Shown: positions 29,113 to 37,135 of the stretch, piece by piece
How the letters are laid out: each line of letters opens with the position of its first letter
How positions within the stretch are numbered: position 1 is the stretch's first letter
NCBI RefSeq assembly: GCF_900188325.1
Contig: NZ_FZPD01000006.1
Coordinates: 124,001-188,000, forward strand
DNA: 64,000 nucleotides
Direction of reading: 5' to 3'
Source of the DNA: Ekhidna lutea
GTDB taxonomy: Bacteria > Bacteroidota > Bacteroidia > Cytophagales > Cyclobacteriaceae
Program-made: the position numbers and the translations under genes
Notes under the pieces: generated by a model
The model's input: only the letters and a program-made list of their open reading frames with translations
Told to the model about the DNA's origin: nothing
Database searches by the model: none

Positions 29113-30015
29113 ATGGAGTCACTACGAGAAGTCTGGACTAGCATAATTGAGTTTCTAACCAAAGTGGGTGAGATATTCACTACCAACCTTTTTGAACTGG
29201 GTGAGAGTAATATCACACTTGGTACGATTATCTATTTTGTACTAAGCTTCGTCATACTGACTTTCGTTGCAAAGCGATTCAGAAACCTCTTAGTGAACAA
29301 AATATTGGTTAAAGCCAATATGGAGAGAGGTGCTCGAAATTCCATTGGCCTGATCACACGTGTGATGATCATGTTTGTGGGCTCTATTTTCATTATTCAG
29401 AGCGCAGGCATAGACATGAGTTCTTTGAGTCTGCTTGCCGGGGCATTGGGTGTAGGTATTGGTTTTGGCTTGCAAAACATCACCGACAATTTCATCTCGG
29501 GCATCATCATCTTATTTGAAAAGCCCATTAAGGTTGGAGATCGTATTGTCGTAGGAGATACAGAGGGTGATGTAATTAACATTTCAGTGAGAGCAACAAC
29601 CATTTTGACAAATGAGAACGTTTCCATCATTGTTCCAAACTCTGAATTCATTTCTTCCAGGGTCATTAACTGGAGTCATAATGACCGAAATATACGATTT
29701 GATATTCCTGTGGGTGTTAGTTATAAGGAAGATCCAGAGGAAGTAAGAGAGGTATTAATCAAAGTGGCACAAGAAAATGAGCATGTATTAAAGCACCCTG
29801 CGCCTCATGTGTTTTTTGATGAATTTGCAGACAGCTCGCTCAATTTTACGCTGGCCATCTGGACTTCAACTCACACGGATAAACCACGAAGATTGAAGAC
29901 CGAGCTTTATTTCGAAATCTTCAATAAATTCAAAGAAAAGGGAATTGAAATTCCTTTCCCTCAACGCGATGTATATATCAAGTCAAACGTTGAGCCTATG
30001 CCGCTGCAGAAGTAG
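29113..30015 (+). CDS. Small-conductance mechanosensitive channel, MscS family
   Basis: A 300-residue inner-membrane channel that releases osmolytes under hypo-osmotic stress. Transmembrane helices fall at about residues 37-55 and 79-98, followed by the glycine/alanine-rich pore helix SLLAGALGVGIGFGLQNI and the family signature NFISGIIILFEKPIKVGD. The beta domain (VVGDTEGDVINISVRATTI, VPNSEFISSRVINWS) and cytoplasmic cage domain complete the protein. Length and order match MscS rather than the larger MscK type. The last 20 bp overlap the 3' end of the convergent sterol-desaturase gene, which limits room for separate terminators. Confidence 0.94.
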   Translation: MESLREVWTSIIEFLTKVGEIFTTNLFELGESNITLGTIIYFVLSFVILTFVAKRFRNLLVNKILVKANMERGARNSIGLITRVMIMFVGSIFIIQSAGIDMSSLSLLAGALGVGIGFGLQNITDNFISGIIILFEKPIKVGDRIVVGDTEGDVINISVRATTILTNENVSIIVPNSEFISSRVINWSHNDRNIRFDIPVGVSYKEDPEEVREVLIKVAQENEHVLKHPAPHVFFDEFADSSLNFTLAIWTSTHTDKPRRLKTELYFEIFNKFKEKGIEIPFPQRDVYIKSNVEPMPLQK

Positions 30016-30922
30016 TAGATTCTTCTTTTGGTGTAACACCAGCTTGTATCTGTTTTGCTGTAAGGGTAGAGTTATCCGGACTCCATCCCGGAGGGCCAAA
30101 AATGTACATAAACCCTTGTTTAAAGTTTTTTGCCTTCTTCACATCCTTATAGATGTCTACAAATTCATGGGTGTTTAGTTTAATCGGATTGTATGTCCCG
30201 GGATCTTTCAGGATTCCATATTTTGGATCTACTCCGGGGATAATGTTTTGCCAGGTGCCAAATAAATGATCCCAAAACATAAAAATACCTCCATGATTTT
30301 TATCCAGGTACTCCACATTACTGGAGTGATGTACCGCATGCACATAAGGGTTGTTGAAAATCTTTCCAAAGAAGCCTAGAGATCCTAAAAGCTTGGTGTG
30401 CAAAAAGTACTGATAGGTTGAGTTGATGATCAGTGCTGTTCCGATCATAATTGGATCAAATCCAATACAGGCCATCCATAACCAAAATACTGGCTTATAG
30501 AGTGTTATAAACCACCCATTTCTAATGCTGACTGCAAAGTTGAAATTCTTAGAGGAATGATGGGGGACGTGTGCTGCCCAAAGTAATCGAACAGTATGAC
30601 TGAAACGATGATGCCAATAAAAGTTAAAATCATCAGCTAGTACTGCCAGAATCCAGGCCCACCAGGCAAAGCCAATAGATGTATACCCAAGGTATTGTTC
30701 CCGCAATGGCGCCAAGACATCAAAAAACCACTGAAATACGACTAATACCGTAAATACTTTGGTGAAGGCTGCCACAACAGAAGCACCCAATGCAATGCCA
30801 AAACCAGCTAGAGAGTCCTTTAATTCGTAATTCTTTCGCGCTACCAAATACTCCAATACCATAAACCCAACCAAAATTGGATAGATGTATTTCATTCCTT
30901 CTACTGCACTAAATTCAGGCAT
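29996..30922 (-). CDS. Sterol desaturase / fatty acid hydroxylase family protein, copy 1
   Basis: A 308-residue integral membrane di-iron oxygenase. The eight-histidine ligand pattern is visible: FYWHHRFSH (His104, 105, 109), AAHVPHHSS (His118, 121, 122), HAVHHSSN (His195, 198, 199) and His210. Several transmembrane helices precede and separate the clusters. Family members hydroxylate or desaturate sterols, carotenoids or fatty acyl chains; bacteria of this group often use them on ornithine or sulfonolipid acyl chains, but the substrate here is unknown. It is about 90% identical by eye to the next gene upstream (31064-31996) and forms a tandem pair with it. Its 3' end overlaps the MscS gene by 20 bp. 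Confidence 0.9.
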   Translation of the reverse strand: MPEFSAVEGMKYIYPILVGFMVLEYLVARKNYELKDSLAGFGIALGASVVAAFTKVFTVLVVFQWFFDVLAPLREQYLGYTSIGFAWWAWILAVLADDFNFYWHHRFSHTVRLLWAAHVPHHSSKNFNFAVSIRNGWFITLYKPVFWLWMACIGFDPIMIGTALIINSTYQYFLHTKLLGSLGFFGKIFNNPYVHAVHHSSNVEYLDKNHGGIFMFWDHLFGTWQNIIPGVDPKYGILKDPGTYNPIKLNTHEFVDIYKDVKKAKNFKQGFMYIFGPPGWSPDNSTLTAKQIQAGVTPKEESTTSAAA

Positions 30923-31063
30923 ATTACTTTTCTTATTGTTTTATTTTTTTGAACTAGAGTGACAGTGATAGAGGTGGATTGCTTTTTCGAATAAAACTGC
31001 AAATTTCATCTGATTGTTTGATAATTCAAAAAGAGATTCTATTAATGAAGATTTATCGGCAAT

Positions 31064-31996
31064 CTAGGCCGCTTCAGAAGCAGAATTGGAAGGCGCTCCC
31101 TGCGGGATCGCACCTGCTTGTATCTGCTTTACGGTTAAGGTGCTGTTATCGGGACTCCAGCCTGGAGGGCCAAATATGTACATCAATGCTTGCTTCAAAT
31201 TTTTTGCTTTCTTCACGTCCTTGAAGATGGCTTCAAATTCATGGGTGTTTAGCTTAATGGGATTATAGGTCTCAGGATCCTTTAATATTCCGTACTTAGG
31301 CTCCACTCCTGGGATAATATTTTGCCAGGTGCCAAACACATGATCCCAGAAAAGGAAAATACCTCCATGATTTTTATCCAGGTACTCCACATTACTGGAG
31401 TGATGTACCGCATGCACATAAGGGTTGTTGAAAATCTTTCCAAAGAACCCCAGCGAACCGAGAAGCTTAGTGTGCAAAAAGTATTGATAGGTAGCATTTA
31501 TAATAAGTGCGGTACCAATCATCACGGGCTCAAAACCAATGCAAGCCATCCAAAGCCAGAATACAGGCTTATAAAGAGTGATGAACCACCCGTTTCGGAT
31601 ACTTACTGCAAAGTTGAAATTTTTAGAAGAATGATGAGGCACATGGGCAGCCCATAACACACGAACCGTATGACTCAGCCTGTGATGCCAGTAGAAATTA
31701 AAATCATCAGCAAGTACTGCCAAGATCCATGCCCACCATGCAAATCCAATAGATGTATATCCAAGGTACTGTTCTCTGATAGGAGCAAACACATCAAAAA
31801 ACCATTGAAAGACCACAACTACCGTGAAAACTTTAGTAAACGAAGCTACTATTGAAGCTCCCAGCGCAATACCAAACCCTGCTAATGAGTCTTTTAGTTC
31901 GTAATTTTCTCTAGCTACAAGGTACTCTACCACCATAAATCCGATCAGGATCGGGTAAATGAATTTCATACCTTCTACGGCACTGAATTCAGGCAT
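31064..31996 (-). CDS. Sterol desaturase / fatty acid hydroxylase family protein, copy 2
   Basis: A 310-residue paralogue of the adjacent downstream gene, with all histidine clusters conserved in the same spacing (FYWHHRLSH, AAHVPHHSS, HAVHHSSN). Differences cluster in membrane segments and the last 20 residues, so both copies look functional. The 141-bp gap between copies shares a short block (GTGACA flanked by TAG and GATA) with the region upstream of this copy, suggesting that the promoter or leader was duplicated with the gene. Substrate is unknown. A 92-bp stretch is identical between the two copies although the surrounding DNA differs by roughly a fifth, see findings. Confidence 0.9.
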   Translation of the reverse strand: MPEFSAVEGMKFIYPILIGFMVVEYLVARENYELKDSLAGFGIALGASIVASFTKVFTVVVVFQWFFDVFAPIREQYLGYTSIGFAWWAWILAVLADDFNFYWHHRLSHTVRVLWAAHVPHHSSKNFNFAVSIRNGWFITLYKPVFWLWMACIGFEPVMIGTALIINATYQYFLHTKLLGSLGFFGKIFNNPYVHAVHHSSNVEYLDKNHGGIFLFWDHVFGTWQNIIPGVEPKYGILKDPETYNPIKLNTHEFEAIFKDVKKAKNLKQALMYIFGPPGWSPDNSTLTVKQIQAGAIPQGAPSNSASEAA

Positions 31997-34790: not shown

Positions 34791-34823
34791 AAAAAAAGCG
34801 GTTGGCACCCCTACCAACCGCTT
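34791..34823 (-). terminator. Strong rho-independent terminator of the tRNA-like RNA gene
   Basis: On the minus strand AAGCGGTTGG (complement of 34814-34823) pairs perfectly with CCAACCGCTT (complement of 34796-34805) around an 8-nt loop, followed by seven T residues (complement of 34791-34797). This is a textbook terminator. It lies 26 bp downstream of the tRNA-like 3' end and upstream of fadD, so it separates the two transcription units. Confidence 0.88.
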
Positions 34824-34848: not shown

Positions 34849-34996
34849 CTGTAGAGGGAGGATTCGAACCTCCACGGAGCAGTTAGTCCCGAGCGTTCTC
34901 TCACGGATCATTATCGTGAGAGAACATACCGGGATTTATCCCTTACCTCCACCCCCGAGAGAGGAGGGCATGTCTGCCAGTTTCACCACTCTACAG
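34849..34996 (-). tRNA. Aberrant tRNA-like RNA with 78-nt insertion between anticodon and T arms
   Basis: The ends fold as a tRNA. The acceptor 34995-34989 pairs over 7 bp with 34856-34850 (8 bp if 34996/34849 are included). The T arm is perfect, GGAGG-TTCGAAT-CCTCC at 34873-34857. The D arm at 34986-34970 (GTG, loop with CTGGCAGA, CAT) is leucine-like. An anticodon arm can form from 34968-34964 and 34956-34952, with a 7-nt loop CTCTCTC (nominal anticodon CTC, unusual pyrimidine at 37). Between it and the T arm lie 78 nt (34951-34874) with nested stems, including a perfect 11-bp hairpin (34925-34915 with 34905-34895). CCA is not encoded. It may be a functional odd tRNA, an interrupted tRNA, a pseudogene or a tRNA-like regulatory RNA. 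Confidence 0.6.
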
Positions 34997-35010: not shown

Positions 35011-35041
35011 CAAATTTAAAAGAACAATAGTTTTATTGAAA
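35011..35041 (-). promoter_or_regulatory. Promoter of the tRNA-like RNA gene
   Basis: On the minus strand TAAATTTG (complement of 35011-35018) matches the Bacteroidota -7 box exactly, and TTTC (complement of 35038-35041) sits 19 bp upstream, one base from the -33 TTTG. Transcription would start roughly 8-10 nt before the tRNA-like 5' end, a normal distance for a tRNA gene. Confidence 0.6.
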
Positions 35042-35689: not shown

Positions 35690-37135
35690 ATGAGTACTGA
35701 CGAACAAATATTAGAAGAATTTACCTCCAAAGAATATGAGCATGGCTGGTCGGTTGATTTCGAGGCTGATGAGGCTCCTTTAGGTATAAATGACGATATC
35801 ATTCGTTTCATTTCGGCTAAGAAAGAAGAGCCGGAATGGCTATTGGAATGGCGTTTGAAAGCCTTCAAGCAATGGCAGAAAATGACTGAGCCAAACTGGG
35901 CCAATGTCAAGTATCCAAAAGTAGACTATCAGTCTATTCGATATTATTCTGCACCTAAACAGGACAAGAAGCCTAAAAGCCTTGATGAGGTAGATCCTGA
36001 GTTACTTAAAACCTTCGAACGCCTGGGCATTTCGCTCCAGGAGCAAAAAAGACTTACCGGGGTGGCTGTTGACGCAGTGATTGACTCAGTATCAGTAGCT
36101 ACCACTTTTAAAGAAAAATTATCTGAGCTTGGAGTGATTTTCTGTTCATTCAGTGAAGCAGTTCATGAACATCCGGAGCTTATTAAGAAATATTTAGGCT
36201 CTGTTGTACCTGCCAATGACAACTACTTCGCAGCACTTAACTCTGCAGTATTCTCTGATGGGTCATTCTGCTACATCCCAAAAGGGGTGAGATGCCCAAT
36301 GGAGCTTTCTACCTATTTCAGAATCAATGCTGCTAACACGGGTCAGTTTGAGCGAACCTTGATTGTAGCAGAAGACGACAGTTATGTGAGCTACCTGGAA
36401 GGGTGTACCGCTCCTCAGCGAGATGAAAATCAATTGCATGCTGCAGTCGTAGAAATCTATGCGGCAAAAAATGCTGAAGTAAAATATTCGACTGTTCAAA
36501 ACTGGTATCCTGGTGATAAGAACGGAAAAGGTGGTATTTACAACTTCGTAACCAAACGAGGTATTTGTGCTGGAGATCATTCCAAGATTTCATGGACGCA
36601 AGTAGAGACCGGATCTGCAGTGACCTGGAAATATCCTTCGTGTATCCTAAAAGGTGACAATTCCATTGGAGAGTTCTACTCGGTTGCAGTTACCAATAAT
36701 CACCAGCAAGCAGATACTGGGACAAAAATGATTCACCTTGGGAAAAACACCCGATCAAGAATCGTTTCCAAAGGTATCTCTGCCGGTAAGTCTCAGAATA
36801 GCTACAGAGGGCAAGTTGAGATTATGAAGCGAGCTGAAAATGCCAGAAACTTCTCACAATGTGATTCATTATTGATGGGTGACAAGTGTGGTGCTCATAC
36901 CTTCCCTTACATAGACATCAAAAACAAATCTGCCCAGGTGGAGCATGAGGCTACTACCTCTAAGATTGGTGAAGATCAAATCTTCTACTGTCAGCAACGG
37001 GGAATTGATGAAGAAACTGCCGTGGCACTCATTGTTGGTGGATTTGCAAAAGAAGTGATGAATAAGCTTCCTATGGAATTTGCAGTAGAAGCTCGAAAAC
37101 TATTAGCGCTTACGCTTGAAGGTAGCGTAGGATAA
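35690..37135 (+). CDS. sufB: Fe-S cluster assembly scaffold protein SufB
   Basis: A 481-residue SufB, the scaffold subunit of the SufBC2D complex that assembles Fe-S clusters. Recognisable family stretches include [47 protein letters not shown] and the C-terminal [16 protein letters not shown] with a conserved Cys that takes part in cluster transfer, followed by [21 protein letters not shown]. It is the first gene of the suf operon and follows its own promoter with a probable operator. Length is normal and no residue seems missing. The acidic N-terminal leader ([11 protein letters not shown]) is typical for Bacteroidota members. Confidence 0.97.

Follow-up and report, generated by a model that had tools for sequence, protein, structure and literature searches.

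In Deinococcus, Thermus and Bdellovibrio, asparagine can be made on tRNA-Asn, a U1-A72 tRNA, by a non-discriminating aspartyl-tRNA synthetase (ND-AspRS) and the amidotransferase GatCAB (PMC4206432). The same source describes 18 genera, some of them Bacteroidetes, that have AsnRS, GlnRS and GatCAB and no asparagine synthetase, and proposes that they use a tRNA-Asn route via ND-AspRS; the carrier in that route is the decoding tRNA-Asn, and AspRS must be non-discriminating. The positions read by the two enzymes are given in a second source (PMC9976931): G73, G34, U35, C36 and C38 are aspartate determinants, with G2-C71 as a minor one, while U1-A72 is the determinant by which the amidotransferase selects Asp-tRNA for amidation, and G1-C72 and U20a are antideterminants.

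Here we analyse a tRNA-like RNA gene of Ekhidna lutea that lies in a 64,000-nucleotide stretch of contig NZ_FZPD01000006.1 (positions 124,001 to 188,000), hereafter the window. We propose, from sequence comparison, that this RNA is probably a dedicated non-decoding tRNA that would be charged by AspRS and amidated by GatCAB to supply asparagine under the control of an AsnC-like regulator. The predicted Asp-to-Asn chemistry, the U1-A72 pair and the genomic setting (AsnRS, GlnRS and GatCAB without asparagine synthetase) are those of the tRNA-Asn route. The difference would lie in the carrier: a second RNA, non-decoding and bearing the aspartate determinants, would allow an ordinary discriminating AspRS to carry out the first step.

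The RNA also resembles other tRNAs. It shares a 3-bp D stem, U44 and a variable-arm base followed by two unpaired nucleotides with bacterial tRNA-Leu and type II tRNAs, as seen in E. coli tRNA-Leu and in the tRNA-Leu genes of E. lutea, which we inspected, but it has G73 rather than A73, U1-A72, an NUCYC loop and, in host copies, a variable region of 39-131 nt. With tRNA-Asp (GUC) it shares the loop C-U-G-U-C-x-C, G2-C71, U3-A70 and G73, and differs in U1-A72, the lack of U20a, a base other than A at position 37 and the long variable arm. Staphylococcal tRNA-Gly, which functions in cell-wall synthesis rather than translation, and other cell-wall tRNAs are likewise products of tRNA genes with non-ribosomal uses and altered elements, but their amino acid, enzyme and purpose are different and they do not involve GatCAB. 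Finally, tmRNA (SsrA) is also tRNA-like, and both RNAs occur in some viral tRNA clusters; unlike tmRNA, the RNA described here possesses an anticodon arm and lacks both a tag ORF and G3-U70, the alanine feature of tmRNA.

Results

Anatomy of the RNA gene

An initial annotation, made from the letters of the window, had described a tRNA-like gene with an insertion at 34849-34996. We confirmed this gene on the minus strand (34995-34849), with the sequence as described: a leucine-type D arm with a 3-bp stem, a perfect T arm with TTCGAAT, a variable region of 78 nt that holds nested stems, the inner one an 11-bp hairpin with a 9-nt loop, and a 7-nt anticodon loop, CTCTCTC, with a pyrimidine after the nominal CTC (Table 1). 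This copy thus has U33, C34 and U37. The acceptor had been given as 7-8 bp; seven pairs hold, and the eighth, C-G, falls outside the acceptor; relatives carry C, T or A at position -1. A competing CCTCC/GGAGG stem, also suggested, is not supported: the 5-bp anticodon stem pairs in 40/40 aligned copies. That stem varies on one side only in this alignment; compensated versions (CCGTC/GACGG, CCCGC/GCGGG, CCCAC/GTGGG) occur among parsed copies, where parsing demanded at least 4/5 pairs, and a CCTCC/GGTGG stem with a central mismatch is present in 25/253 host copies.

Table 1 Features of the tRNA-like RNA locus and its neighbours, in window coordinates.
Feature	Position	Strand	Basis or remark
tRNA-like RNA, U1 to G73	34849..34995	-	sequence reading, BLASTN, 40-copy alignment, covariance model
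C74 of the tRNA-like RNA	34848	-	encoded; discriminator G73 at 34849
Acceptor 5' strand TGTAGAG (U1, G2, U3)	34989..34995	-	
Acceptor 3' strand CTCTACA	34850..34856	-	40-copy alignment
D arm GTG-AAACTGGCAGA-CAT, without U20a	34970..34986	-	118 parsed copies
Anticodon arm CCCTC-CTCTCTC-GGGGG; loop is positions 32-38; nominal anticodon CUC	34952..34968	-	
Giant variable arm with a GGAG/CTCC base, a conserved GGATAAA/CTAACTG internal loop and an apical hairpin that varies	34876..34950	-	
11-bp apical hairpin of the variable arm	34925-34915/34905-34895	-	
T arm GGAGG-TTCGAAT-CCTCC	34857..34873	-	
Promoter-like TAAATTTG	35011..35018	-	TAnnTTTG -7 element
Inverted repeat TTATTGAAA-N3-TTTCAATAA	35033..35053	.	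possible regulator site
Intrinsic terminator of the RNA gene	34791..34823	-	sequence
Divergent AsnC-like regulator gene, 153 aa	35127..35588	+	NCBIfam, PDB match
sufB, next after asnC	35690..37135	+	same neighbour cluster in 20/85 loci

Of the ordinary tRNA genes in the E. lutea genome, 33 were found and 31 read, and all 31 end in the discriminator plus C; the 3' end of the RNA therefore resembles that of a normal tRNA gene, its terminal CA presumably being added by the CCA enzyme. The genome has a tRNA-Pro gene with the anticodon AGG, which is unusual in bacteria (L051 1500-1575, G000:C10).

Upstream, TAAATTTG matches what we take to be the Bacteroidetes TAnnTTTG -7 element, and TWnnTTTG was present in 80/129 intergenic regions against 21.5 expected. 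Together with the strong terminator downstream, this promoter-like sequence makes the locus look like a free-standing RNA gene. A hairpin with a T-run similarly follows many relatives' copies, as judged by eye. At eight loci (L001-L004, L015, L018, L025 and L030) a conserved stretch resembling TTTGGGTT(A/T)ATGTTGTTTATT lies just 5' of the terminator. Inverted repeats near asnC were found in 32/129 regions against 16.2 expected in Markov samples, a modest excess that is too weak for a regulator site to be named. We rejected a role as leader of the acyl-CoA ligase gene that lies downstream, since the RNA's own terminator stands between them and that gene family adjoins only 16/85 loci. Elsewhere in the window (29996-31996) are two adjoining genes of 308 and 310 aa that closely resemble each other, a tandem duplication; both have His-rich motifs like those of fatty-acid/sterol hydroxylases.

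The window copy folds with z = -3.5 against 200 shuffles. Its single-sequence minimum-energy fold lacks the D stem, and the structure thus rests on comparison. ARAGORN called no tRNA gene in the whole window or in the loci of nine relatives, and Rfam gave no match in the whole window at the gathering score. A tRNA-Sec identity was rejected, as that model scored the RNA at only 15 bits (E 3.5), and the window copy had no PLSDB match, which argues against a mobile plasmid element.

Conservation and distribution of the RNA family

BLASTN found the RNA in 37/59 genomes searched, that of E. lutea included; by BLASTN alone, 7/9 congeners had no match, which counts against our explanation. In an alignment of 40 copies, 97.1% of cells pair, compared to 52-61% in slid controls, and five of the six helices contain pairs with changes on both sides, 11 in all (67 cells vs 22 in shuffles). 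The pairs at the base of the variable arm and at the base of its apical hairpin are among those that change on both sides, so that covariation, which the initial annotation had proposed as a check, is found in the inserted stems themselves. The extra sequence is accordingly a conserved, covarying variable arm and not an anticodon-loop intron, and an interrupted tRNA in need of processing, one of the options first considered, is not supported.

A covariance model (CM) was built from these 40 of the BLAST/CM copies. Members score about 79 bits and up and are about 109-197 nt long; other matches reach at most 70 bits and for the most part measure about 85 nt, which presumably makes them ordinary tRNA-Leu. 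The CM tables, read by eye, place the RNA in about 139/194 genomes of the host's order, in 31/296 of a phylum sample (including two from outside the class) and in 50/295 of a class sample; the last was drawn evenly rather than by hand and used stricter filters, so that members may be missed. The family thus extends across Cytophagales-type Bacteroidia, two genomes outside the class, an Ignavibacteriales MAG and viral contigs of IMG/VR; among the matches listed (at least 119 stretches) are Chitinophaga, Pedobacter, Hymenobacter, Algoriphagus, Pontibacter, Marivirga and the Ignavibacteriales MAG. Tandem arrays are common, with five copies in one genome (G165). No title or abstract opening returned by searches of a literature collection, outside which most subscription journals and all bioRxiv preprints fall, describes the tRNA-like RNA.

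The conserved parts are U1-A72, G2-C71 and U3-A70, the short D stem, the D loop TGGCAG, the loop C/U-N-N-U-C-Y-C, the 4-bp variable-arm base, the internal loop GGATAAA/CTAAC, the T arm, G73 and C74. The variable region spans 39-131 nt in host copies and its apical hairpin ranges from a few nucleotides to more than 60. In one genome of the same order, G048 (C23:55337-55414, L346), we found a 78-nt version that has lost the variable arm and kept the recognition positions (U1-A72, CTATCTC, G73, C74) and the terminator; a model permitting the armless form might find more. The initial annotation had reasoned that a close relative with a normal tRNA lacking the insert would point to decay or a recent insertion. 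An insert-free relative does exist, but its RNA, with CTATCTC, U1-A72 and G73, is no normal tRNA either.

The RNA combines determinants for AspRS and GatCAB

We parsed copies by requiring 7/7 acceptor pairs, at least 4/5 anticodon-stem and T-stem pairs and a loose GGCAGACATGCC seed, so that these pairings and the seed were selected for, whereas the loop, the identities of the pairs and the discriminator were not. Copies recovered with exact patterns carry a bias at the positions that the patterns fix, and the main counts therefore use only the 118 unique parsed BLAST/CM copies. Among these, U1-A72, G2-C71, U35, C36, C38, G73 and C74 are each present in 118/118, and U3-A70 in 117/118. GGCAG or GGCAA from position 18, without U20a, is likewise found in 118/118, a feature that the parser seed also favours. 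The aspartate positions and U1-A72 occur together, and the RNA thus combines the AspRS and GatCAB determinant sets. In the window copy, G73, U35, C36 and C38 of the AspRS set are present with C34 in place of G34, and for GatCAB it has U1-A72 and lacks U20a.

The tRNA-Asp of E. lutea has G1-C72, G2-C71, U3-A70, G73, U20a and the loop CUGUCAC; at its acceptor end the RNA differs from this tRNA-Asp only in pair 1-72, which is of the GatCAB type. Among the 31 tRNA genes read, with positions assigned by eye, U1-A72 occurs in Asn and Gln only. Because tRNA-Asn has U1-A72, though alongside U20a, the ordinary route may also operate, and this counts against our proposal. The A73 and leucine anticodon of a tRNA-Leu were not found, all 118 copies having G73 and an NUC loop.

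Elongator tRNAs that decode have a purine (A/G) at position 37 and U33. Across the family, position 37 is U in 105 copies, C in 11, G in 2 and A in none of the 118, and U33 is present in 87/118; with a pyrimidine at 37 and U33 often missing, ordinary decoding is improbable. Position 34 is G in 100, A in 10, C in 7 and U in 1, leaving 18/118 without G34.

An AsnC-like regulator adjoins the RNA gene

The divergent neighbour had initially been taken for Lrp. Its NCBIfam scores (169.7 bits for AsnC, with a cut-off of 227, vs 56 bits for Lrp) and its best PDB match (2cg4, AsnC, E 6.2e-35) make it AsnC-like instead. In E. coli, AsnC responds to asparagine. Looking beside the same regulator gene in relatives, as the initial annotation had suggested, proved decisive: at 133 cellular loci, a divergent gene 122-328 bp upstream encodes an AsnC homologue of 50-100% identity. 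Because 11/200 cellular loci are repeats of the same place, and eight more were omitted for short flanks, this corresponds to 126/181 distinct places with an adjacent AsnC-like gene, all divergent, and 55/181 without. The adjacency is also present in the Ignavibacteriales MAG and in the two genomes from outside the class.

gatB accompanies the RNA

The E. lutea genome encodes gatB (512 bits), AsnRS (620) and GlnRS (708); no AsnA match was found in it, and its best AsnB match (2.6e-13) fell below the cut-off. With both synthetases present, asnA absent and no asnB over the cut-off, GatCAB there is without an evident ordinary substrate. If GatCAB uses the RNA, the RNA should never occur without GatCAB. 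We scored GatCAB by gatB alone and read overlaps between genome tables by eye. In the evenly drawn class sample, gatB was over the cut-off in 216/295 genomes, comprising 50/50 RNA-positive and 166/245 RNA-negative ones (Fisher p 3e-8, ignoring phylogeny). Among 40 + 40 genomes hand-picked from the order and phylum CM tables, it was present in 40/40 RNA-positive and 20/40 RNA-negative genomes.

Genomes without GlnRS need gatB for Gln-tRNA anyway, and gatB says little in them. When both GlnRS and AsnRS are present, GatCAB should be needed for neither glutamine nor asparagine, which makes for a sharp test. Of the 80 genomes picked, 41 class members have both synthetases, and gatB was found in 21/21 with the RNA and 0/20 without. 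The contrast appears even inside single families, f23 (RNA-positive G305 and G479 vs G230 and G346) and f24 (RNA-positive G235, G261 and G373 vs G245 and G339). One of these RNA-negative class members, G245, has no gatB, AsnA, or AsnB over the cut-off and may be an asparagine auxotroph. Outside the class, four genomes (G258, G401, G356 and G370) have GlnRS, AsnRS and gatB but no RNA, which counts against our proposal. G048 was counted as RNA-negative throughout despite its armless variant; since this genome, in which gatB and AsnA are present, lacks GlnRS, the 21/21 vs 0/20 result is unaffected.

Asparagine synthetases were also unevenly distributed. An E. coli-type AsnB (query from G354; at least 58% identity) was found in 0/40 RNA-positive and 15/40 RNA-negative genomes; one of the 15, in G257, is interrupted by stops, and G280, with a 41% match, adds a sixteenth RNA-negative genome. 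In 35/40 RNA-positive genomes an AsnB-like protein exceeds the cut-off; most of these proteins lie in frames of ~595-690 codons, and some may make asparagine; G107 and G373 are like E. lutea in AsnA and AsnB, and G046 and G065 fall below the AsnB cut-off. AsnA matched in 4/40 RNA-positive genomes (G066, G138, G165 and, just below the cut-off, G045). The RNA is thus not the sole possible source of asparagine in genomes with AsnA or AsnB-like proteins, a further point against our proposal.

The hallmark of non-discriminating AspRS is, we assume, His at the RDHGG site. The E. lutea enzyme (586 aa) has Lys where the Asp/Asn-labelled structures 4wj3 and 4rmf have His and 1efw (Thermus) has Leu. Of 21 AspRSs from RNA-positive genomes, 20 were readable at this site, with 13 Lys, 4 Leu, 3 Phe and no His; among 20 from RNA-negative genomes, all readable, His occurs only in G304 (RDHGG). 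By this sequence hallmark, the AspRSs of RNA-positive genomes look discriminating, a setting in which a separate aspartate-type carrier would be needed.

Copies of the RNA in viral contigs

In IMG/VR, 18 stretches match a 3' pattern of the RNA and 81 a 5' pattern, three being in both. Of 30 viral stretches scanned, 20 contain ARAGORN tRNA genes (up to 25) and five contain tmRNA. Clusters with tmRNA, whose tags end in ADYAVAA, lie near the RNA gene in L268, L280, L303, L309 and L319. Half of ten ORFs from three contigs matched PHROG families, including endolysin/tail-like and methyltransferase families; one viral copy searched in INPHARED had no match there, and no named phage was found. The viral status rests on IMG/VR, the tRNA clusters and tmRNA, and the PHROG matches, and some contigs may be cellular. 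No adjacent asnC was found at 81 parsed viral loci, ten of which have a short flank.

The variable arm contains GG(N)T(T/A)GACCAC in 54/57 viral copies (L235-L330, e.g. L264, L272, L288 and L327), followed by palindromes that differ between copies: GCCGGC, GCATGC, GCTAGC, GCGCGC and CTGCAG. Palindromes of at least 10 nt occur in 33/57 viral copies vs 6.7% in shuffles, and could form kissing-loop dimers. Host copies show no enrichment (at least 6 nt in 128/253 vs 60% in shuffles), and a general dimer model is thus unsupported. Seven viral copies (L258, L279, L288, L257, L302, L268 and L280) have an extra hairpin in the D loop, often near-palindromic, before TGGCAGAC, which places their 5' acceptor strand further upstream. 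For a virus, the RNA might serve to sustain asparagine supply during infection.

Discussion

Our results are best explained by a carrier for asparagine synthesis. An ordinary discriminating AspRS would load the tRNA-like RNA with aspartate, GatCAB would amidate it to asparagine, hydrolysis or another use would free the asparagine from the RNA, and AsnRS would place it onto ordinary tRNA-Asn. Asparagine on a GUC-type anticodon would misread aspartate codons in the ribosome, from which the faulty loop and the long arm would exclude it. The AsnC-like protein would tune RNA output to the level of asparagine. The strongest objection is that the window copy has C34, and thus CUC, a Glu-type anticodon, despite G34 being a strong AspRS determinant. 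It is sharpened by the reported finding that AspRSs do not make Asp-tRNA-Glu (PMC6523644). In addition, U1-A72 takes the place of G1-C72, which helps E. coli AspRS, and this too counts against the carrier, as do the 18/118 copies without G34 and the absence of an adjacent asnC at 55/181 cellular places and at all 81 parsed viral loci.

The same determinants and the AsnC context would also suit a regulatory RNA, a mimic charged or bound by AspRS or GatCAB that acts as a sensor or decoy to tune asparagine-related genes under AsnC control and yields no material asparagine. The conserved internal loop, topped by an apical hairpin that varies, suggests an additional binding partner. However, regulation leaves unexplained why class members with GlnRS and AsnRS keep gatB only with the RNA, and why E. 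coli-type AsnB is absent from RNA-positive genomes, and we consider it unlikely.

We hold it quite improbable that the RNA is a working decoding tRNA, an additional, long-armed tRNA for Asp (or Asp/Glu) that would read GAN codons in certain circumstances. Its consensus loop differs from the CUGUCAC of tRNA-Asp at position 37 only, and in viral contigs it lies within, or close to, clusters of ordinary tRNA genes. That one position is never A, however, U33 is missing from 31 of the 118 copies, position 34 takes all four bases, and E. lutea already has ordinary tRNA-Asp GUC and tRNA-Glu UUC. Moreover, U1-A72 would expose Asp-tRNA to amidation and so, we infer, lead to misincorporation of asparagine.

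Amidation might instead serve glutamine, the RNA being charged with glutamate through its CUC- or UUC-like loops. C34 of the window copy would fit, as would a D arm resembling that of the E. lutea tRNA-Gln (GTG-TAACTGGCAA-CAC) and the reported failure of AspRSs to aspartylate tRNA-Glu (PMC6523644). Against it, G34 prevails in the family (100/118), G2-C71, U3-A70 and G73 match tRNA-Asp while tRNA-Gln has A73, the neighbour is of the AsnC type and the host has GlnRS; we regard this option as very improbable. A decayed tRNA or recent functionless insertion, to which the blank ARAGORN and Rfam gathering-score results in the window and the varying copy number might point, is already contradicted by the invariant positions, covariation, promoter and terminator, and a context conserved beyond the class, and can hardly be entertained. 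Conservation, covariation, promoter, terminator and gene context instead support the initial suggestions of an unusual functional tRNA or a tRNA mimic, and the initial interpretation as a whole is partly supported.

On balance, we favour the broader view that a class of tRNA gene has become a metabolic RNA cofactor: a non-decoding platform for Asp-to-Asn conversion that would use an unmodified discriminating AspRS and GatCAB, would be controlled by AsnC, occurs in several orders and is borne by viruses, in many of which palindromic arm loops could pair two RNAs. For annotators, the RNA constitutes a new family. If the carrier proposed here is real, it would explain how Bacteroidetes with AsnRS and GlnRS keep GatCAB yet lack asparagine synthetase, would predict which genomes have been wrongly annotated as those of asparagine auxotrophs, and would provide a case of a tRNA gene product that serves metabolism rather than decoding.
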